From: a virus
Strand: one strand, 5' to 3'
Virus record (IMG/VR): IMGVR_UViG_3300025941_000088
Span: 1 to 25,803 of that record
DNA: 25,803 bases
Notes under the pieces: model-generated
Told to the model about the DNA's origin: nothing
The model's database searches: none
The model's input: the letters and a program-made list of their open reading frames with translations, nothing else
Shown: one piece after another, positions 4,887-23,357 of the stretch
Layout: each line of letters opens with the position of its first letter
Numbering within the stretch: position 1 is the stretch's first letter
Position numbers and translations under genes: made by a program

Positions 4887-6032
4887 TTATAGACCTCCAG
4901 ACAGAAGCAATGAAGAAAGTCCTTTGGAAATACCGCCAAAATTACCAAGTGCCGCTGATCCAAGACCAAATAGACCACCAGTCAACGCATTATTTCCTGC
5001 TTGCTGAGCATTATAGTTTGCCAATTGACCTTGATATTGTTGATTATAAAGATTTGCAATATCAGTATTTCCAACTAAAGCTTGTGGAACTCCGGAAAAT
5101 TGAGGAGCAGTTACTTGTGATCCAGAACGAATTGCATTCAATTCATTCAATGGTTGTTGACGTAAATAATTCTGCTCATTGATATACTGATTTCGGCCTT
5201 GATTTTGCAAATTAGCATTTGCCATGGATTGATTAAATCCGGCATTTTGATTAAATGATGCCTGATTAAATCCTTGTGCTTGCGCAGCATTATGGAACTG
5301 AGCATTTTGCAATGCTTGGTTATATGCATTCTGATTTGACGCAAGACCAATATTAAACAATCGAGATTGTTCCGCTCCACCACCAGTAATTGCGCTATTC
5401 CTTGCATTATTATATGCAAATTCCTTGTTTCGGCTAAAATCACCAACCGCTCGATTCCAGGCATCAGAATTTTGTGCAATCCCTTGCGAAATAAGTTTTT
5501 TCTCAAGATCAGATTGATCTTGCTTCCACTGGGGATCAAGGAATGAAGTTTGCTGATTATATAAAGAATCTCTTTGTGTCTGCAGATCCTTGACAAGATC
5601 CTGGCCACCAATCAAAGATGGGATTCTGCTCATATCCACATCATTTTGGATTGATCCATATGAAACAGGCCGATAATTACCAAGACTCAATGTTTGAGAT
5701 GGCGCATTATCGTAATTGAATGGCTTGCTCAATGTATCCGATGTTGAGTTAAGCTGGTTTAGCCCAAGATTCGCCAATGCCTGACTGATTGAATTATTAG
5801 AATTCAATAGCTGTTGTTGTTCAGGCGATAAATTAATGGTTTGTGTATATTTCGGAATACCATTGGCGTCAACGCCATTTTGAGTATAAGTCAAATTACC
5901 CCATGGCGTAACTTGATCAATACGATTCAAAGCCGCATTAGCAATTGCCGTATCTTTATTTTGCTGAGTCTGAGCAGCAGCAACCACATTTGGATCGGGT
6001 GGGGTTGGTGCTTTAGGGCTACTTTTACCCAT
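4887..6032 (-). CDS. Gln/Asn-rich internal virion protein
   Basis: The frame is open from 6077, but I place the start at ATG 6032 because an AAGGA Shine-Dalgarno lies 8 bases upstream and the protein then starts MGKSSPKAPTPPDPN, a common opening for this podovirus family. That gives 381 aa. The body is unusually rich in Gln and Asn: residues about 220-330 contain repeated NQNAYNQALQNAQFHN and FNQASFNQNAGFNQ motifs. The C-terminus is Gly-rich and hydrophobic (NALTGGLFGLGSAALGNFGG), possibly membrane-active. The coding strand is more A+T-rich than its neighbours. It is the first of the three probable ejection genes. Family knowledge suggests a virion internal protein; the specific function is not known. 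Confidence 0.65.
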   Translation of the reverse strand: MGKSSPKAPTPPDPNVVAAAQTQQNKDTAIANAALNRIDQVTPWGNLTYTQNGVDANGIPKYTQTINLSPEQQQLLNSNNSISQALANLGLNQLNSTSDTLSKPFNYDNAPSQTLSLGNYRPVSYGSIQNDVDMSRIPSLIGGQDLVKDLQTQRDSLYNQQTSFLDPQWKQDQSDLEKKLISQGIAQNSDAWNRAVGDFSRNKEFAYNNARNSAITGGGAEQSRLFNIGLASNQNAYNQALQNAQFHNAAQAQGFNQASFNQNAGFNQSMANANLQNQGRNQYINEQNYLRQQPLNELNAIRSGSQVTAPQFSGVPQALVGNTDIANLYNQQYQGQLANYNAQQAGNNALTGGLFGLGSAALGNFGGISKGLSSLLLSGGL

Positions 6033-6042
6033 GATTATGTCC

Positions 6043-6459
6043 TTATATCCATTTGCATTCATCGCGCAGCATTCCATACACTACGCAATCATCATCACAA
6101 AATCCTTTTCGCATAATTCCTTCCTGAGTAAATCCAACTCGCTCAAGGAATTGGCGCGTATGGACGTTCTTGGATGGCGTCAATGCCGTAACACGTATGC
6201 ATCCAAGCTGCGAAAACGGATATCTAAAAATAGCTTCTAAAGCTTTCTTACTTAACCAATGTTTGTCATCTGCTGCACATGACATTTGAATATCATTGTC
6301 TCTATATTCATGATAGACCACAGCCCCCAACGGTTGCCCATTTTCAGATTGCACGCCAATAGTCATCATGTTACTGAATTCTGAGACATGAGGAATTCTA
6401 TCTGAAACCCATTTTGCTATGGCTTTGTTTGCTTCGCCAGTCGCAAAAATAAGTTTCAT
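6043..6459 (-). CDS. GNAT-family N-acetyltransferase
   Basis: This 138-aa protein has a GNAT fold pattern. A beta strand with QPLGAVVYHEYRD (42-54) matches the core sheet, and RVTALTPSKNVHTRQFLERVGF (89-110) matches the end of the acetyl-CoA domain, where the N-x-x-(T/S)-R-x-F-L-E-x-x-G-F pattern is typical of RimJ/RimL-like enzymes. EGIMRKGF (113-120) follows. The usual pyrophosphate-binding Q/RxxGxG/A loop is weak here (around SKKALEAIF), so activity needs testing. Its start overlaps the tail hub stop by ATGA, and its stop lies within the leader of the next virion gene, so it is part of the late operon. Related acetyltransferases sit in the same slot in other podoviruses; the substrate is unknown. 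Confidence 0.75.
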   Translation of the reverse strand: MKLIFATGEANKAIAKWVSDRIPHVSEFSNMMTIGVQSENGQPLGAVVYHEYRDNDIQMSCAADDKHWLSKKALEAIFRYPFSQLGCIRVTALTPSKNVHTRQFLERVGFTQEGIMRKGFCDDDCVVYGMLRDECKWI

Positions 6460-8912
6460 AGAACACCACCTAGCCTAAAGACATATGTAACAGCTTGCCA
6501 ATTGGTAGCACTCATGTTGTTCACGATCCGCATATGGAGTGCGCCGGCATTACCGACACCAGTCAGACCCTGCCAATCAGTTTTTGTGCTGACACCTGGA
6601 CTCCATGGGAATGTGTTCCAAAGCTTTGTATTCCATAAAGTACCGCCAGTTCCGCTAAAAGTTGGATTCGCAATCGGATAATTGTCGTTGAAATCCATAT
6701 CAATCCCAAGCGTAGCAGTCATATTGCCAGTGAGATTGAAAATTGGCTGAGCCATGGTCACATGCTTTTTCCTGCCTGGTGCTCCGAAATATTGAAAAGC
6801 AGTCTTTGCCTCGCCAAAGATATAACCACCATCATCAGAATAACCAGTATCTGCTTTTGCTACATATGCGGAACCAGCAATAACATTCGATCCGAAATAG
6901 AGATCATTGCCAAGAATTTCAAATGTGTTTGCATTCCAATTCGTGAATTTGCACCACGAATTATTGACTACATTCATCACATATTGGTATTGATTGGCGT
7001 TCTGTACTTGCGGAATATTGACGAATATCTTATTACCAGTTGGATAATAGATTGCATGGAACCCGAAATTATTAAAATAATTTTCGGTGTCGCTGTTGAC
7101 CAATACTGAGATTTTATCGCTCAGTGAATCGCGCAATTGAGCACGATCAGTCAAAAGAGACTTCGATAATGCGGTAAACCCATCCGTGGTCAGCAAAATA
7201 ACATCAGAGCCATAGCGAGTATAGAAACGCCTGCCTGGGGGGCGTCCAACGAAGAAATGGCCTGCTTTAGTCCAATTGGCGGCATTGCTAGGATCGGTGC
7301 CGGCATACATTAAAACTTCGCCTTCTGTCGAAATGAAGCAAGCATATTCCTGGATGCCTGCAGCATTATCAATTGTCCATGTCACCATAGCCTGTAGAGA
7401 ACCGCCGAGATTCATCAATGAGCCAAAGTCAAAGACTTGTGCTGCACCAGAAATAGCATTAGGCGCGAGGAACCATATTTTCAGCGTGTTCTTTTCGACA
7501 AAGAACAAGCGATTAGCATAGATGTTCAGGTGAATCAGATTGCGCGCATCCACTCCCGTAATGGCAGGAGTGACAATGAATGTCCCGGTTACGGTCGCAT
7601 TGGTTGCCGGAACCGCGCTCATTGTATAAGTGAACGTGGTAGGACTGGTGACGGTAATTACAAATGTCCCATTATATTCATTCGGATTTGCACCAGAAAC
7701 GATAATGGTCGTGCCAGTCGTCAGATTGTGTGGAGTGCTAGTTGTATATGTCGCCGTAGTACCCACAAAGGTAATCGAGACTGGACGCTGAACAATCGTA
7801 TATGTCCCGGTAATCGTTGCATTGCTGCCAGGGACTTTGACAAACGTTCCTACAGGAGCCGCATTAGAGCCCGGATCGCTCTGCATGTTATAGGTGAATG
7901 TCGTCGCGCCAGTAACAGTGACTTGGAACGTACCGTTAAAGGCCGCTGGTGTCGCGCCAGAGACTAGAACGAAGTCACCCGTCACAAGATTGTGCGGAGT
8001 GCCAGAAGTCAGCGTAGCGAGCGTTCCAACGCGTGTAAGCGTGCTTGTCGTCTGGTTGACGACATATTGCCCGACAGTCGTTGCATTAGTCGCTGGCGTG
8101 CCACCCATCGTATAAGTGAATGTAGTAGCACTTACGACCGTGATATTCGATGTGGCATTGTATGTAGCCGGCGCAGCACCAGAAACCGTGATGTTGTTGT
8201 TAGTGCTCAGGCCATGCGGGAAGATCGTCGTGACGGTCGCGGTCGTTCCGGAGAACGTGATAGATGCGATCGCATATTGGCCCATCACATAAGTAAATGT
8301 ATTCGCTCCCGTCGAAGTGATCACATACGCACCGTTATACATCGATGGTGTAGCGCCCGTCAGACTGATAATCGTGCCAGTCGAGAGCAAATGAGGCGCG
8401 CTGGTCGTTGCAGTAGCCGTACTGCCCGAATAAGTAATCGTGTTGATTGTCTGCGAGCCAAGGCCAGAAACAGCTTTCCAAATCGTGCCATCATAGATGC
8501 GCGGATAATCAGCGCCATTCACGGCATAAAGGAATGATCCGCCTGGCGTCGTGAAGTTCACATGCTGCCAGCGCGCATTGGTCAATCCAGTTACAACAGC
8601 CGCACCTACGGCACCTTGGGCCGTGGCGTCATAGAAAGAGGTTCCTGATGCAGCAAAGAGCTTGCTTGTTCCGCCAGCGTTATAAGCCATCAAGCTTTCT
8701 ACTGCAGCCGAATAACCAGTTGACCAACGAACGAATCCCTTACGCAGCTCTACGCTGGTTGTATTGGGGAAAAAGTTGGTCAGAATAGTGGCATCAGTCG
8801 GCGGCATGGCCGCGAGCGCATCACGCGCATTCAAGCCCCCCGTAGGGGCAGGAAGCGTGAGAGTCTGTGCCGGAGGTTGTTGCGGCGGTCGTTTTTGGCG
8901 AGGAATGAACAT
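6456..8912 (-). CDS. Tail hub / DNA-stabilisation protein with four internal repeats
   Basis: This 818-aa protein matches the large podovirus tail protein placed after the tail adaptor (P22 gp10-like or tail tubular protein B-like). Residues 20-150 contain PTGGLNARDALAAMPPTDA, then ELRKGF, then LYAVNGADYPRIYDGTIWK, and residues 450-620 continue with GVDARNLIHLNIYANRLFF and FFVGRPPGRRFYTRYGSDVI. These look like beta-propeller segments. Four related modules of about 60-70 residues are inserted between 156 and 448, each with a (T)PHxLxTG..IxVSGAxPxxYNGT..V....TTFTYxM pattern. The C-terminus ends in an antiparallel beta region (TNWQAVTYVFRLGGVL). A GGGAA Shine-Dalgarno precedes the ATG, three bases after the previous stop. 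The hub role is inferred from gene order and family pattern. Confidence 0.75.
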   Translation of the reverse strand: MFIPRQKRPPQQPPAQTLTLPAPTGGLNARDALAAMPPTDATILTNFFPNTTSVELRKGFVRWSTGYSAAVESLMAYNAGGTSKLFAASGTSFYDATAQGAVGAAVVTGLTNARWQHVNFTTPGGSFLYAVNGADYPRIYDGTIWKAVSGLGSQTINTITYSGSTATATTSAPHLLSTGTIISLTGATPSMYNGAYVITSTGANTFTYVMGQYAIASITFSGTTATVTTIFPHGLSTNNNITVSGAAPATYNATSNITVVSATTFTYTMGGTPATNATTVGQYVVNQTTSTLTRVGTLATLTSGTPHNLVTGDFVLVSGATPAAFNGTFQVTVTGATTFTYNMQSDPGSNAAPVGTFVKVPGSNATITGTYTIVQRPVSITFVGTTATYTTSTPHNLTTGTTIIVSGANPNEYNGTFVITVTSPTTFTYTMSAVPATNATVTGTFIVTPAITGVDARNLIHLNIYANRLFFVEKNTLKIWFLAPNAISGAAQVFDFGSLMNLGGSLQAMVTWTIDNAAGIQEYACFISTEGEVLMYAGTDPSNAANWTKAGHFFVGRPPGRRFYTRYGSDVILLTTDGFTALSKSLLTDRAQLRDSLSDKISVLVNSDTENYFNNFGFHAIYYPTGNKIFVNIPQVQNANQYQYVMNVVNNSWCKFTNWNANTFEILGNDLYFGSNVIAGSAYVAKADTGYSDDGGYIFGEAKTAFQYFGAPGRKKHVTMAQPIFNLTGNMTATLGIDMDFNDNYPIANPTFSGTGGTLWNTKLWNTFPWSPGVSTKTDWQGLTGVGNAGALHMRIVNNMSATNWQAVTYVFRLGGVL
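7568..8447 (-). repeat. Four tandem protein-coding repeats in the tail hub gene
   Basis: Residues about 156-214, 215-284, 290-358 and 377-448 of the tail hub protein share one pattern: ITxxGTTATxTTxxPHxLxTG, then SGAxPxxYNGT, then TTFTYxM. An extra partial piece lies near 359-376. The copies have diverged, so they are protein-level rather than DNA-level repeats. Modules like this occur as surface-exposed beta domains in phage tails and may bind cell-surface sugars; that role is inference. Confidence 0.8.
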
Positions 8913-10548: not shown

Positions 10549-10929
10549 TTACGCGCTGACGATAGCGAAGTAATTGCCGTCGCCGCGAGCAAGGAACAAT
10601 GCGGATTTACCGCTAGCGACAGAAACTGCCGCATTCGTCGCTGCAAGACCGATCTTGAAGCCTACTGGCGGATAAACAGACAGCGCATTAGCGCCATTGT
10701 TCACTACCACCAGAGCATCACCACCAGTCACGCGAAAACCAGTTGCAGGCAAAACAGCACCAGTGCTCGCGGCTGCTGTGGTGAACTCAGTAGTTGCGGC
10801 GGTCAGTGCGAATGCAGTTGCTTGACTGTTGCCCGTTGCGGTCTGCCCGAGTTGCTGCAAACCACCGATTGCTTGTGCGGCAGGCCAGGAAATACCTGCA
10901 CCCATCATGTCCGTCTGAAAACCTAGCAT
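10549..10929 (-). CDS. Small virion protein, probable capsid decoration or stabilising protein
   Basis: This 126-aa protein is rich in Ala, Gly and Thr with alternating hydrophobic residues, as in a beta-sandwich. It contains ATAFALTAATTEFTTAA, then TGFRVTGGDALVVVNNGANALSVYPPVG, and the closing AALFLARGDGNYFAIVSA-like strand. Short proteins of this pattern follow the major capsid gene in many podoviruses. A strong AAAGGAG lies about 7 bases before the ATG. The gene is flanked by two UUCG-loop hairpins, so its mRNA level is probably set separately from the tail genes downstream. Role inferred from position and composition. Confidence 0.6.
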   Translation of the reverse strand: MLGFQTDMMGAGISWPAAQAIGGLQQLGQTATGNSQATAFALTAATTEFTTAAASTGAVLPATGFRVTGGDALVVVNNGANALSVYPPVGFKIGLAATNAAVSVASGKSALFLARGDGNYFAIVSA

Positions 10930-10950
10930 GTTGTTCTCCTTTGAGAAGAA

Positions 10951-10966
10951 TGGGGCCGAAGCCCCA
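10951..10966 (-). terminator. UUCG-loop hairpin (weak terminator or processing element)
   Basis: A perfect 6-bp stem TGGGGC/GCCCCA with a TTCG loop on the minus strand sits just after the stop of the first decoration-like gene. The tail is TTCTTCTC, not a clean T run, so read-through is likely. It is nearly the same as the hairpin at 10521-10544. Confidence 0.55.
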
Positions 10967-10970
10967 TTTA

Positions 10971-11480
10971 TTAGGTAATCGCGCCCTGTGCGTGCGGACG
11001 ATTAATCTCAACAACAGCTTGGTTCGCAGCAGGAGTGCCAGTAGCAGTCACGTTGATTGCACCGAGAACTTGAGTGCCAGCGGCGGCAGTCGAGGTCAAT
11101 TGACCAGAACCAGCCAGATATACCGGAGCCGGACCAGCAGCCAGAGTGCCATTAGTAGCGCAAACTGCATTGCCATAGACCTGATACCAGCCATACTGAC
11201 CAGCCACGTTTACCGACATTGCCACCGCGATAGGACGAGCCTGGTTAGCAGTGTTTGCCGCCAGCGTGGTTTGGCCGGTTGGCGTGCCAGTGGTATTGCC
11301 CACATAGGTAACTACCGAGCCGACAACGGTCGAAGCAACACCCAGCAGATAAATAAATTCGCCAGCGCCATAAACAGGATCTACAGCGCTGACAATCATG
11401 CCGATTGGGTGATTTTTGACCGTGTCAGTCACGGCGATAGGCTGGAAGCCAGCCAGGGGATTTTGAATAGTGTAAGCCAT
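10971..11480 (-). CDS. Capsid decoration-like virion protein
   Basis: This 169-aa protein begins MAYTIQNPLAGFQPIAVTDT and contains GEFIYLLGVASTVVGSVVTY, then QYGWYQVYGNAVC, and ends QAVVEINRPHAQGAIT. The beta-rich, small-residue composition, the short length and the position directly after the major capsid gene fit a head decoration or cement protein. It has a strong AAGGAG Shine-Dalgarno about 7 bases before the ATG, like the coat gene, which suggests a high copy number. I have no enzyme motif to report. Confidence 0.65.
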   Translation of the reverse strand: MAYTIQNPLAGFQPIAVTDTVKNHPIGMIVSAVDPVYGAGEFIYLLGVASTVVGSVVTYVGNTTGTPTGQTTLAANTANQARPIAVAMSVNVAGQYGWYQVYGNAVCATNGTLAAGPAPVYLAGSGQLTSTAAAGTQVLGAINVTATGTPAANQAVVEINRPHAQGAIT

Positions 11481-16086: not shown

Positions 16087-17520
16087 TTAAATGCGCCCTG
16101 GTTCTCTTTTAGGCGTCGAAGCCCACATTTCCTCAAGTGTAACATTATTTTTGCCGATGCCGACAAAGATGGCTCGCATATCCTCTGGTTTTTGAGGTGG
16201 CGGTTCAGCTTGTTGCATTATCTGGCAGCCATAACTAAATCCATCGCCATCATGGGATGACCAATCGTGAACAGGATCAGATCCGAATATCTTGGCTTCT
16301 TCGTCATATTCATAGCGCCAATTGCGTAGACCATCTAATCCACGCTCGCATTTAGTCTGATTGAATTTAACTTTGCCAATCATCACCCTAGCAGCATTAA
16401 CACGGTCAGCAATAGAAGATCGGGGAACCATAGCCACATATTTAGTGCCGAATTTCTCGATGAATATCTCAACCGCGCTATGCTTTGCGCTAAATGTCTT
16501 AGCCCTAGCATCATGTGGCATCCAGATCCTGCCTAAAGCTGGCTTTCCCTCGCTGGTCTTATAAGCCTCAAGCATATTTTTCAGCTTATAGCACCATTCC
16601 TCCGCATCAATCGCCCATCCACTGGCATAATCGATGATCTGATAGCCGCCAATCTGTGGTTGCCAGAACCACCAAGTAGCTGTGTCGCGTCGGCCCAAGT
16701 CACAAGTAATCTCGATTGGCGCACCGTAGGGATCGTATTGGACTTCATCACTGACTCGGCCTTCTTTCTCTGCTGCAGCGATAGAACGAGCCAGGATTGC
16801 GCCCATGATTGCCGCATCGAAGGAACAGAGATATTCCTGTTCAAATTTGGCTCGCCCGTAATCTTCACCGAATGAATCGACATATTCCTTCAGCTCAGCC
16901 GCGAGTTGTGCGGGCGTCATTGTTCGGACGTCGTAAGCATCCAGGCGCTGAGCAAATACGTCTAAGCCAGCGCGCATGTTCTTTTCAGCCGCTGCGAATG
17001 TCGTATAAGCGTGATTCCTGCCGCGTGGAGTGGTGATGAAGGCTTGCCAACCGTTATTTTCAGCGATGATAGGACGGAGATATGCGCGGACGTTTGGATT
17101 CGATAGCGCCCATTCCGAATAGACAATGCCCGCAGGTGTGGTGCCGACCAAGCTATCCGGGTTATCTGAGCCTACGACCTGCCACGTGCTGCCATTGATA
17201 AACTCAATGGTCATTTTGGTGTTGTCAGTGCGCTTTCTCAGTTCTAGCGGGAAAGCTTCATCAATGCGCTTCTTACCAGTGCTCGGATTAACCGCATCCC
17301 AAATTGCCTTACGCGCCTGGTTGTACTCGGGAAGCATATGCCAGTAGTTGGCAACACGCTCAAATGAAGCGCATGCCGCCCAATGAAGGCAGACAGCATC
17401 CTTACCAGCTCGGCGCGGCCAAATGAGCTCAGCATGCCGCCCGCCATTTTCCAAATATGACCAAGCGGCCATTTGATATTCGCGTGGCCGCCATTCATTC
17501 GGAAGCTGGATAATGCTCAA
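16087..17520 (-). CDS. Terminase large subunit (packaging ATPase-nuclease)
   Basis: This 477-aa protein has an N-terminal ATPase: a Walker A-like loop WPRRAGKD at 34-41 (variant with D after GK), Walker B GIVYSEW with the acidic residue at 136, and coupling motif ITTPRGRN at 162-169. The C-terminal RNase H-type nuclease has candidate acidic residues in ITCDLGRRDTA (D274), MPHDARAK (D336) and DWSSHDGDGFSYG (D424/D426). The frame starts at TTG 17520, whose bases overlap the previous stop (TTGA); an AGGAAG Shine-Dalgarno lies about 8 bases upstream. No ATG occurs in the frame before residue 17. TTG and overlap suggest expression depends on translation of the preceding gene. Confidence 0.9.
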   Translation of the reverse strand: MSIIQLPNEWRPREYQMAAWSYLENGGRHAELIWPRRAGKDAVCLHWAACASFERVANYWHMLPEYNQARKAIWDAVNPSTGKKRIDEAFPLELRKRTDNTKMTIEFINGSTWQVVGSDNPDSLVGTTPAGIVYSEWALSNPNVRAYLRPIIAENNGWQAFITTPRGRNHAYTTFAAAEKNMRAGLDVFAQRLDAYDVRTMTPAQLAAELKEYVDSFGEDYGRAKFEQEYLCSFDAAIMGAILARSIAAAEKEGRVSDEVQYDPYGAPIEITCDLGRRDTATWWFWQPQIGGYQIIDYASGWAIDAEEWCYKLKNMLEAYKTSEGKPALGRIWMPHDARAKTFSAKHSAVEIFIEKFGTKYVAMVPRSSIADRVNAARVMIGKVKFNQTKCERGLDGLRNWRYEYDEEAKIFGSDPVHDWSSHDGDGFSYGCQIMQQAEPPPQKPEDMRAIFVGIGKNNVTLEEMWASTPKREPGRI

Positions 17521-18946: not shown

Positions 18947-19753
18947 TCAATTGTTATAGAGATGAGCTTCCCAATCCATGCTGACAATCATGCTGTTATT
19001 GCTTGTGCCAACACATTGTGGAATAAAGTTGAATCGCTGTGCCACACGGATTTTAGTCTCAGCGCGCAATGTAAATGGCTGTAAATCAGTACATGTAATA
19101 GCTTTTGGCGCACTGACCGAGCCATTAGGATTTCGGAAATTAAGCCTGAAGTCGGCTCCTCGAGGAGTGCCTGTTAAGCCAGAAGCCAAGATTTTAGCTT
19201 CCATCGAGAAGATTTCGAGAGTTTTATTGATCGGCACAGTATAAACAGCATTCGATAGATTGCCAGTGAATGCCGGGATAATGCCACGTACTTTCGTATT
19301 ATCTCCTGCACTGCCTGCAACACGGATGGTAATGTCACCCTGATTCTTTACTCGCTGGGCTGAAGATGTAATACGCCCAGTCACAGCTCCATTCAGCCAT
19401 GCATATGATGCGGCATTAGGAAGAATTACCGGAGTCGTTCCGTTGAGATTAACTGTAAATGCTGCGATTTCGTTATAGCTGAAATCGAGAATAGTGAATG
19501 TAACTGTTTCTGAGCCAGATCCGCCTACCGTGTCATTAAGGCTCGCTGATACAATTTCCCAGGACTCATTAGCGGTAGGGAAAGTCATTTCACTGTTTAC
19601 GCCAGCCCAAATATCCTGACCTGCAGATAAGCTACTGAAAGCTGTTGCAATAGATCTAGTGCAAAGCGCATTGACTCTCACCACGCCAGAAACAATGTTC
19701 CGGCTAACATCTGCCGTAAAATCGCGTTCAATGCCACCACCAGACCTGCTCAT
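18947..19753 (-). CDS. Putative virion-associated beta-rich protein
   Basis: This 268-aa protein has the segment FPTANESWEIVSASLNDTVG then SETVTFTILDFSYNEI and AAFTVNLNGTTPVILP. I recognise these from a family of podovirus virion-associated proteins of unknown role, in which EVVSSSANDT and GTTAV motifs recur. The C-terminal half has IIPAFTGNLSNAVYTVPINKTLEIFSMEAKIL and ends VSMDWEAHLYNN. A CAGGAG sits 6 bases before the ATG, and the stop is followed at 8 bases by the next start. It is the first gene of the block between the small and large terminase. Virion association is inferred from the family. Confidence 0.6.
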   Translation of the reverse strand: MSRSGGGIERDFTADVSRNIVSGVVRVNALCTRSIATAFSSLSAGQDIWAGVNSEMTFPTANESWEIVSASLNDTVGGSGSETVTFTILDFSYNEIAAFTVNLNGTTPVILPNAASYAWLNGAVTGRITSSAQRVKNQGDITIRVAGSAGDNTKVRGIIPAFTGNLSNAVYTVPINKTLEIFSMEAKILASGLTGTPRGADFRLNFRNPNGSVSAPKAITCTDLQPFTLRAETKIRVAQRFNFIPQCVGTSNNSMIVSMDWEAHLYNN

Positions 19754-21518: not shown

Positions 21519-21710
21519 TTATTGAGCTTCGATCTTTGGAACTTCCATATCAAGCGCTTGGTATGCAAATAGGATCTGCACCCAGATTAAGCTTTTATCG
21601 CGGCGCTCAGCACGATAAACAATTCGTTTTGCCCATGCCTTGTAGTCACATCCGTTCGTGGTCTGGGTCGGATATTTCGCCTCAGCTTCATATTTGAGCT
21701 GGTAGCTCAT
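21519..21710 (-). CDS. Small phage protein of unknown function
   Basis: This 63-aa protein, MSYQLKYEAEAKYPTQTTNG then WAKRIVYRAERRDKSLIWVQILFAYQALDMEVPKIEAQ, is mixed and mildly basic with no motif I recognise. Its start overlaps the loader gene's stop by ATGA, so it is part of the replication operon. A gene is likely from the overlap and the absence of better frames. Function unknown. Confidence 0.55.
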   Translation of the reverse strand: MSYQLKYEAEAKYPTQTTNGCDYKAWAKRIVYRAERRDKSLIWVQILFAYQALDMEVPKIEAQ

Positions 21711-22360
21711 TTCACAGCCCTCAGGTCAGCCAGTAATGCTTTCACAGCAGCTTTTCCTTTCTCGCTCGGGCCAGCCAACAGAGGATGATTCTTGACGCCG
21801 GCCATCTTCACAATCTCTGTCGCGTATTCGGGCTTCCATTCCAATGCTGCATCAAGGCTTACCTGGCCCGTTTGCACAGCCTTGGCGAGCATAGAAACGA
21901 CTCCATGGCGGTCTGTGCCATAGGAAGGGAAATAACGCGGCTGGCGGCCTTCTAGCTTGGCTCGATCGACTAGGCGTGTGTAGCAGTCCTTGAACGCCAT
22001 CCGAGCTGCTATGCGGTCGCCAGCTTCGATAAGTGGAGTGGCGGCGGCAATGGCTTGTGCAATCTCGTCTGTCAGCATGGCCGATTCATGCTCGGACTTC
22101 GGCATTAGCGCCCAGGCTTCATCTGCACCGAGCCATTGGCCGTCGAGCTGAGCGGCGCAAAGCTTTGCGATGTCAGCAAGTTGTGGCTTGAAGTGACTCG
22201 ACTTCAGATGCTGAGTTGCAGCAGCCATAACGGCGCCATCAGGGAATGCTCTTAACGCTTCCCACCACATTTCCAGACGGGGACCGACTACTTCGCCCAT
22301 ATCCGCATATTCGGCTTGTAGGACTGCGATTGCATTGCTGAGTTCTTGCTTTGTCGTCAT
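21707..22360 (-). CDS. Probable replicative helicase loader (G39P-like)
   Basis: I use ATG 22360 (217 aa) because it overlaps the initiator gene stop by ATGA; ATG 22375 is also possible. The N-terminal domain, with IAVLQAEYADMGEVVGPRLE, then MWWEALRAFPDGAVMAAATQ, then HLKSSHFKPQLADIAKLC (about 10-68), matches the pattern of the SPP1 G39P-type helicase loader and inhibitor N-terminal domain. The rest is helical, with a central YTRLVDRAKLEGRQPRYFPS and a basic C-terminal end KGKAAVKALLADLRAVK. In such operons the initiator is followed by the loader, as here. I infer that it brings a host DnaB-like helicase to the origin. Confidence 0.6.
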   Translation of the reverse strand: MTTKQELSNAIAVLQAEYADMGEVVGPRLEMWWEALRAFPDGAVMAAATQHLKSSHFKPQLADIAKLCAAQLDGQWLGADEAWALMPKSEHESAMLTDEIAQAIAAATPLIEAGDRIAARMAFKDCYTRLVDRAKLEGRQPRYFPSYGTDRHGVVSMLAKAVQTGQVSLDAALEWKPEYATEIVKMAGVKNHPLLAGPSEKGKAAVKALLADLRAVK

Positions 22361-23151
22361 GGTTGAGCCATCCATTCGTTGAGTGCATCGATCTGTCTTT
22401 GCATCCGGCTGTCAATGCCTGGGATCACATTAGGCTTGTCAGCATGGGCTATGAACTTGTCCACCCTTGGTCCATCACGGCAGATCAGCTCAATGTCGTT
22501 GTAAAGCGTGCTCCGATCATTCTTACCCATGCTGAATGGATCTTTCCTGCATCCGTCGATCGCCTTGCAGAGTTGTTCTGGCGTATAACCATCCTTTAGC
22601 CTGCCAGTAATCGCTTTCTTGCGCTTAGCATCCAACTGAGCGCGTGGCTTTTCCATAATCTGCTGCCAATAGGCAAAAATCCGAGCGGTCGGGCCGTCAG
22701 GCTCGACAGTGCTTTTGACTTTATCTATTGGTTTATGGTTAGTGGTTAGTGGTTTATGGTTAGGTTGCTCTGTGGTGCTACTTTCGTGCTCTTGTGGTGA
22801 ACCATTCGTGCACGAATCGTCCTCTTTTCGTGCTTTCTTTTTGTTTTCCCTATCGATAGCGATCTGTCGATTGACTTCAGCACGACCACGATAGGATGCA
22901 AGTTCTTCTTCTACGCGAGCTTGCGAGTAGCGTTCGCCATCAAAGACAAAGAACTCATCGAGGATTCCTAGAACAGCCTGTTTCTCGTCTTCAGTGCGTG
23001 CTCTGGCCCAACGAGTAGCCTCTAGCAGCGTAGGAGCCAACTCGCGGTCATAGTAAGCATGAAGAATAAGCAGATAGATACCATGCTCAAGCGGCGACAG
23101 GTGGCCTGTCTTTTTTGCGTAATCGCCAACATGGATTTTGAAGTAGTACAT
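22357..23151 (-). CDS. Replication initiation protein (DUF1376-like)
   Basis: This 264-aa protein has an N-terminal DUF1376/YdaU-type domain: MYYFKIHVGDYAKKTGHLSP, LEHGIYLLILHAYYDRELAP, and helices to about residue 100. A Lys/Ser/Thr-rich linker (106-145) contains the repeated NHKP motif. The C-terminal domain (150-264) has IFAYWQQIMEKPRAQLDAKR then TGRLKDGYTPEQLCKAIDGC and NDIELICRDGPRVDKFIA, a replication-protein pattern common in phages. The Shine-Dalgarno is weak (GGAAAA). The start is overlapped by a leader ORF, and a C4-like RNA lies just upstream, so its expression is probably under antisense RNA control. The linker DNA holds origin-like repeats. Confidence 0.7.
   Translation of the reverse strand: MYYFKIHVGDYAKKTGHLSPLEHGIYLLILHAYYDRELAPTLLEATRWARARTEDEKQAVLGILDEFFVFDGERYSQARVEEELASYRGRAEVNRQIAIDRENKKKARKEDDSCTNGSPQEHESSTTEQPNHKPLTTNHKPIDKVKSTVEPDGPTARIFAYWQQIMEKPRAQLDAKRKKAITGRLKDGYTPEQLCKAIDGCRKDPFSMGKNDRSTLYNDIELICRDGPRVDKFIAHADKPNVIPGIDSRMQRQIDALNEWMAQP
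22729..22833. other. Candidate replication origin: phased repeats in the initiator linker
   Basis: On the plus strand five tandem heptamers TGGTT(T/A)(A/G) fill 22729-22763. TTCGTGC then occurs at 22783, 22805 and 22827, exactly 22 bases apart, and the middle copy is the left half of a 14-bp palindrome ATTCGTGCACGAAT (22804-22817). These repeats lie in the coding region for the initiator's linker (residues 106-141), the location of the lambda origin inside gene O. A T-rich tract follows at 22834-22848. Known: phage origins often sit in the initiator gene and use phased repeats. Inferred: that this is an origin. Confidence 0.55.
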
Positions 23152-23267
23152 AAATTTTCCGGTGCATTGGGGACGGGTCCTGGCCGGACCCCGCAGCAGG
23201 TTCGGGGAGGAAGTCTACTGACAAACCTACCCGTCTCCGATGCACCCCCACTGTTGCAGTAATCCAT
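23022..23267 (-). CDS. Leader ORF overlapping the C4-like RNA (Icd-like?)
   Basis: A frame of 81 aa starts at ATG 23267, with GAGG three bases before it. The first part, MDYCNSGGASETGRFVSRLP, then CCGVRPGPVPNAPENL, is translated from the C4-like RNA itself; the last 43 codons overlap the start of the initiator gene in another frame. I recognise similar short proteins in prophages, where they are products of the same RNA. In P1 an icd frame lies at this place relative to c4 and its translation affects the gene after it. The peptide may matter only as a translated leader. I am not sure that it is a functional protein. Confidence 0.35.
   Translation of the reverse strand: MDYCNSGGASETGRFVSRLPPRTCCGVRPGPVPNAPENLCTTSKSMLAITQKRQATCRRLSMVSICLFFMLTMTASWLLRC
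23161..23246 (-). ncRNA. C4-type antisense RNA
   Basis: On the minus strand an 18-bp stem joins 23229-23246 to 23161-23178 with two G-U pairs. It encloses a 7-bp hairpin AGGTTTG/CGAACCT (23222-23228, 23198-23204) whose loop shows CTTCCTC, and a second element GGGTCC/GGACCC with loop GGCCA that competes with the outer stem. CTTCCTC and GGCCAGGA are the exact complements of GAGGAAG and TCCTGGCC in the leader just upstream, in the correct antiparallel order. That two-part match is the form of c4 RNA of P1/P7 and of P4 CI RNA. I judge this call strong but not checked against Rfam. Confidence 0.8.
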
Positions 23268-23282
23268 CTTCCTCGGCCAGGA
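23268..23282 (-). promoter_or_regulatory. C4 target site (a1-b1-like) over the leader ORF Shine-Dalgarno
   Basis: The minus strand reads TCCTGGCC (23275-23282) directly followed by GAGGAAG (23268-23274), then ATG. The two pieces pair perfectly with the two exposed segments of the C4-like RNA. GAGG is also the Shine-Dalgarno of the leader ORF, so pairing should block its translation, as known for c4 of P1. Confidence 0.7.
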
Positions 23283-23328
23283 TTCAGATGGTGCTCAGGG
23301 TATTAACGCATTGCGCGCCAACATGTAA

Positions 23329-23357
23329 ATTATCGCTCTCGTAACTAATTCCCGCAA
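23329..23357 (-). promoter_or_regulatory. Promoter for the C4/replication leader
   Basis: The minus strand has TTGCGG (23352-23357), 17 bases, then GATAAT (23329-23334; 5 of 6 match to the -10 consensus). A start near 23322 would give a leader of about 170 bases before the initiator ATG. It is the best candidate promoter in this gap. Confidence 0.45.

Follow-up and report, generated by a model that had tools for sequence, protein, structure and literature searches.

C4 and the CI RNA of P4 are known from few phages and are covered by one covariance model. In P4 the CI RNA keeps the phage's own replication genes from being expressed: through its pairing with seqA and seqC, transcription ends prematurely (PMC4825925). 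Processing by RNase P has been described for C4, for which the roles of the loops have also been summarised (PMC5320573), and action in trans is established for both C4 and P4 CI (PMC4825925, PMC5320573). The Rfam C4 model (RF01695) has a 12-nt loop on its second hairpin and a linker before the closing of the outer stem. Inspection by eye of P1 and P4 places an antisense segment a' in this loop and a second segment b' in the linker, with an upstream target in which b comes before a.

The window analysed here is a virus record of 25.8 kb, carrying an RNA module on the minus strand at 23357-23151. On this strand an HTH gene (25547-25323) heads the early operon; NinB, NinG and small ORFs come next, and then a leader (about 23360-23152), a replication initiator and a gene with some likeness to helicase loaders. 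The early region of the module-carrying phages is lambda-like, with NinB/NinG. The original prediction placed a C4-like antisense RNA and its target immediately upstream of a DUF1376/primosomal-type initiator, with no antirepressor adjoining the RNA, and both points are supported. The initiator gene (22357-23151, minus strand) matches PF07120 at 1.5e-21 as well as primosomal and replication families of PHROG, and it starts 10 nt downstream of the outer stem of the RNA. The gene after it (21707-22375, minus strand) shows partial likeness to helicase loaders (phrog_2289, 1.2e-6), next to a match to a family of unknown function (phrog_6028, 2.6e-32).

Read along the minus strand, the leader opens with a promoter-like element (23329-23357) consisting of TTGCGG (23357-23352), a 17-bp spacer and GATAAT (23334-23329). 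The promoter is predicted purely from its match to the consensus; its TTG..N17..-10 layout is preserved in nine aligned modules and in L143. At or adjoining the predicted transcript start lies a 5' hairpin (TTGGCGC-GCAAT-GCGTTAA, 23303-23321) whose pairing is kept despite base changes: the full-length stem survives them in eight of the nine modules and the inner 5 bp in all nine. It is followed by the target hairpin (CCATC ... GATGG, 23264-23291), holding target b (TCCTGGCCG, 23274-23282) in its loop, and by target a (CAGTGGG, 23247-23253). Folding and alignment then define a C4-like antisense domain (23161-23246), in which an outer stem (23246-23229 with 23178-23161) encloses hairpin 1 (about 23228-23208), hairpin 2 (23207-23189) and a linker. 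Covariation and cognate preference point to the hairpin 2 loop as antisense a' (CCTGCTG, 23194-23200) and to the linker preceding the closure of the outer stem as antisense b' (CGGCCAGGA, 23178-23186). Every relative shows the same order of promoter-like element, 5' hairpin, target hairpin, linker, a, and outer stem enclosing hairpin 1, hairpin 2 and the b' linker. Between target hairpin and a lies a linker (ATTACTGCAA, 23254-23263 in the window) that is near-invariant (ACTGCAA) in all modules and is used by neither pairing.

The predicted module is thus real and extends beyond what was first described. The strings named earlier are all present on the minus strand (TCCTGGCC at 23282-23275, GAGGAAG at 23274-23268, CTTCCTC at 23213-23207 and GGCCAGGA at 23185-23178), and the outer stem of about 18 bp is found as described. 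The b pairing exists as well, although its length had to be corrected to 9 nt (TCCTGGCCG with CGGCCAGGA), with b inside the loop of the target hairpin.

A search of IMG/VR for relatives by protein, motif and pattern yielded nine further contigs with the module, near-identical copies being counted once: L002 (and L003), L004, L020, L120, L121, L122, L123 (and L124, L125), L126 and L143. The DUF1376 initiator follows the module immediately in the window, L002, L004 and L020. The module of L120-L126 is followed by a small ORF of about 61 aa (or similar) and then by replication genes, some of them of other types. The RNA is thus retained while the downstream genes are swapped. The 61-aa ORF (M..RFIVAGP.DG.YHV.Y.VPGT..) is often seen between module and replication genes, at 10835-11020 (minus strand) in L121, at 7749-7934 (plus strand) in L124, and likewise in L126 and L120. 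One further contig, L127, matched the b' pattern and was rejected on inspection since it has no module. DNA similarity revealed no homologous module in phage and plasmid collections, and most of the DUF1376-encoding reference phages inspected have another gene right up against the initiator, so that a module would not fit in between. Model R1 found no match in 768 genomes (Burkholderiales plus a gammaproteobacterial class sample), an absence from which nothing is inferred.

The simplest alternative to a conserved RNA device is an ordinary strong leader hairpin with some chance complementarity, and the window alone would leave room for it: its fold is only moderately better than shuffled sequences (z -2.2 and -1.7). 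With a fold just about two standard deviations above shuffles, relatives are needed to decide. Pairs were therefore counted on an alignment of the nine modules, L143 being outside this set, fitted to a model that contains neither a-a' nor b-b'. Overall 95.7% of the pair cells form. The fraction is 100% for the target hairpin (with two-sided changes in 4 of 6 pairs), 97.6% for the outer stem, 88.9% for hairpin 1 and 100% for hairpin 2; it reaches 83% for a-a', with two-sided changes in 5 of 6 pairs, and 100% for b-b', which pair in all nine modules and show two-sided changes at three positions. Two-sided changes occur in 70 cells against 21.7 in shuffles. The covariation score is 0.548 against 0.221 +/- 0.021 after shuffling, a value reached in 0 of 500 shuffles; kinship among the modules inflates this test. 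If the partners are slid by 1-3 columns the score drops to 0.13 or less, and a single column is enough for the collapse. Together with the variety of pair types, this slide control makes chance pairing untenable despite the kinship, and we regard that explanation as barely credible, given that target hairpin, outer stem, a-a' and b-b' all co-vary. Covariation, the lack of which had been named as evidence against the RNA, is clearly present, and the comparison of sequences confirms that the RNA structure and both target-antisense pairings are real and co-evolving.

The pairings are also specific. When duplex energies are computed for each target against every antisense segment, the b duplex averages -17.1 kcal/mol for cognate and -11.7 kcal/mol for non-cognate partners, and the a duplex -6.1 against -1.2 kcal/mol (permutation p 5e-5 in both cases). 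The nine modules differ in their b, of which four kinds occur (TCCTGGCCG, TCTTGGCAGA, TCTTGGAGG(A) and TCTTGGCGGA), and in their a, of which eight kinds occur; the natural a/a' pairs include CAAAGT/ACTTTG in L123 and CGAAGT/ACTTCG in L126. L143, which was discovered once the structure had been fixed, carries an already-known kind of b together with a new pair of a (CATCAGG) and a' (CCTGATG), matching exactly at the predicted sites as judged by eye. A different second pairing had been proposed for the window, between GAGGAAG and CTTCCTC. This one is not conserved: only some members of the TCCTGGCC subgroup have it in exact form, and its preference for the own partner is small (mean -9.5 against -8.1 kcal/mol), many rows favouring a foreign partner. 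The conserved second pairing joins CAGTGGG (23253-23247) to CCTGCTG (23200-23194) in the hairpin 2 loop. Because the hairpin 2 loop holds a' both in C4 (P1, P4) and here, the earlier placement of a' in hairpin 1 was wrong.

In its topology the module closely follows C4 (RF01695; P1, P7): an outer stem, hairpin 1, hairpin 2 with a' in its loop, the b' linker, and an upstream target in which b and then a are complementary to b' and a'. The P4 CI RNA shares this topology, seqA also presenting its b in a hairpin loop (by eye), and controls replication genes (PMC4825925), so that it supports the role of P4 as functional precedent that had been assigned to it; as in P4-type immunity, the antisense RNA is encoded in the leader of replication genes. 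Target hairpins upstream of the C4 RNA, as found in P1 and P4, are described by c4-a1b1 (RF03163) and isrK (RF01394). Differences concern the surroundings. C4 is followed by icd/ant and an antirepressor is controlled, whereas here the initiator follows. In C4 the gene that follows has a second target (a2b2) at its ribosome site, and P4 has seqC downstream in addition to seqA upstream; here we found an upstream target only, with neither an a2b2 nor a seqC-like counterpart. In the loci searched, no second b target with a match of 8-9 nt was conserved. Finally, unlike in P4, the early region is lambda-like with NinB/NinG and the RNA lies immediately before the start of the initiator.

The covariance models do not capture this resemblance. 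RF01695 (gathering score 45 bits) scores P1 at 68.8 and P4 at 74.9 bits but finds nothing at E <= 10 in 14 related virus records, or at E <= 5 in the window, so the Rfam C4 search proposed earlier came out negative, an outcome that had been named beforehand as counting against the RNA. Conversely, model R1 matches neither P1 nor P4. Searches with Rfam at gathering and permissive E-values gave no C4, c4-a1b1 or isrK in the window or in any relative tested, whereas P1 and P4 as positive controls were matched by the c4-a1b1 and isrK models. The module can accordingly be described as a divergent RNA that would work like C4 and P4 CI, placed on a replication operon and not filed under RF01695. No earlier description of it was found in the literature searched, which left out most subscription journals.

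How such an RNA might act was first thought of along the lines of icd/ant, with the antisense hiding a Shine-Dalgarno sequence and thereby blocking an 81-aa ORF (23022-23267) behind the ATG. The target does cover a Shine-Dalgarno and ATG (GAGGAAGATG) in the window and L121, but this arrangement is missing from most relatives (for example GGAGGATTGAGGCCGG and GGCAGACTTAGACGGG). The ORF, moreover, matches no family, and the antisense domain lies within it. We consider this mechanism very improbable. With the Shine-Dalgarno and ATG absent in most relatives, the 81-aa ORF is probably not a real gene. A leader ORF across the target was likewise discarded, as frames and stops differ between relatives (by eye).

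A second architecture is present in other DUF1376 leaders (L005, L019, L027, L046, L064 and L098), where an intrinsic terminator comes after the outer stem. Like the first kind, these modules precede DUF1376 initiators and present a loop b, then a, then an outer stem around an a'-bearing hairpin and b'; they differ in the T-run behind the outer stem and in the order of the inner hairpins, and gave no Rfam C4 match where tested. A descriptor scan matched 7 of 70 leaders, compared with 12 of 4200 shuffles; L005, one of the 70, had been added at its known position, and two of the seven matches belong to the first kind of module. The scan is a fairer measure than the permutation test on these modules, which is partly circular as the segments were picked by eye. 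Elsewhere in the loci the descriptor also matches 98 of 10,192 windows, a count that includes true modules, and it is thus not diagnostic alone. L005 has the promoter and 5' hairpin common to the relatives of the window but another RNA behind them, and this same front end with a different RNA suggests that RNA modules are exchanged between leaders. Its initiator shares the C-terminal half of the window's protein and has a different N-terminal half. In L005 (2120-2572) and L098 (2028-2501) an HNH-endonuclease-like ORF separates module and initiator. Directly before other DUF1376 initiators, the slot of the C4-like module is occupied by int-alpA RNA (RF02996), at L063:655-723, L097:2407-2481, L079:2406-2481, L037:2185-2260 and L093:2410-2484, one of these matches being above the gathering score and four slightly below.

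Terminator-ended elements also occur in left operons, behind the same kind of promoter as the right-hand module; the window itself stops short of its own left operon. Both pairs, a and b, are found in L134 (19541-19360, minus strand; element about 19511-19360) and L125 (5073-5238, plus strand; element about 5104-5238). A loop b with matching b' is found in L132 (16186-16330, plus strand; element about 16216-16330), L126 (about 6060-6161, plus strand; element about 6090-6161) and L137 (15119-14971, minus strand; element about 15088-14971). Three of the five elements have one b in common and show no clear a. In L132 and L134 the element lies upstream of Erf or RecT genes, and none was seen in L136 or in the available part of L121. 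Within one phage the right-hand and left-operon specificities are unlike each other. Directly behind the left-operon module of L134, at 19202-19327 (minus strand), we observed a Betaproteobacteria-1 RNA (RF02932, 73 bits), which hints that the host is betaproteobacterial.

That the parts exist, follow one another in this order, pair as described and co-evolve is demonstrated by this comparison; for what they do, we lean towards a self-contained RNA switch of the C4/P4-CI kind in the leader of the replication operon, whose release and trans action we infer. The leader would be made from its own host-type promoter, with the target (loop b, then a) first and the antisense domain downstream, the long stem closing this domain (loop a', linker b') ending just upstream of the initiator start. 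Freed from readthrough transcripts, the antisense domain would accumulate and pair in trans with b and a of newly made leaders, so that transcription or translation would be halted before the initiator. Replication would in this way come under negative feedback, and phages sharing the a/b pair would meet immunity. Ten modules of the same anatomy, the co-varying pairings, the new pair of L143, the layout of C4 and P4, the P4 precedent and the retention of the RNA amid gene exchange argue for such a switch. Against it stand the failure to find a second target near a ribosome site, unlike in P1 and P4, and the fact that one transcript would also fit a cis fold.

A leader of the latter type would act in the manner of the put RNAs of HK022. 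In it, a-a' and b-b' would knot a single transcript into an attenuator, an antiterminator or a protein-binding site, with no free antisense at all. This purely cis-acting leader is a serious rival, which we judge a real possibility though not the probable one, because target and antisense share a transcript and because tyrosine integrase (PF00589) and S24 repressor (PF00717) were not found in the 14 related virus records (G000-G013). Several of these records are fragments, and several are 33-43 kb long and encode structural, lysis, recombination and replication functions. That target and antisense are invariably found in the same leader, that no second target was found elsewhere, that left and right modules of one phage differ in specificity and that an intrinsic terminator ends some related modules would all suit it. 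Yet a cis fold has no need of an unpaired a-b segment in C4 order, and the bounded antisense domain with its outer stem is laid out as in the trans-acting C4 and P4 CI (PMC4825925, PMC5320573).

The lack of both families in the 14 records also means that immunity, strictly meant, may be absent in these phages. Tentatively, and with some doubt, it might be argued that two independent C4-type switches, each with its own a/b specificity, form the main early-gene control in these phages, where the tyrosine integrase and S24-type repressor are not found; the first would precede the recombination genes and the second the replication genes.

Summarizing, phages with a lambda-like early region carry, directly on the replication initiator, an RNA family that appears to share the logic of C4 and is missed by the C4 model, and related modules add a built-in terminator. 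The family makes trans immunity versus cis attenuation, or both, directly testable, as the natural a/b exchanges provide ready matched and mismatched pairs.
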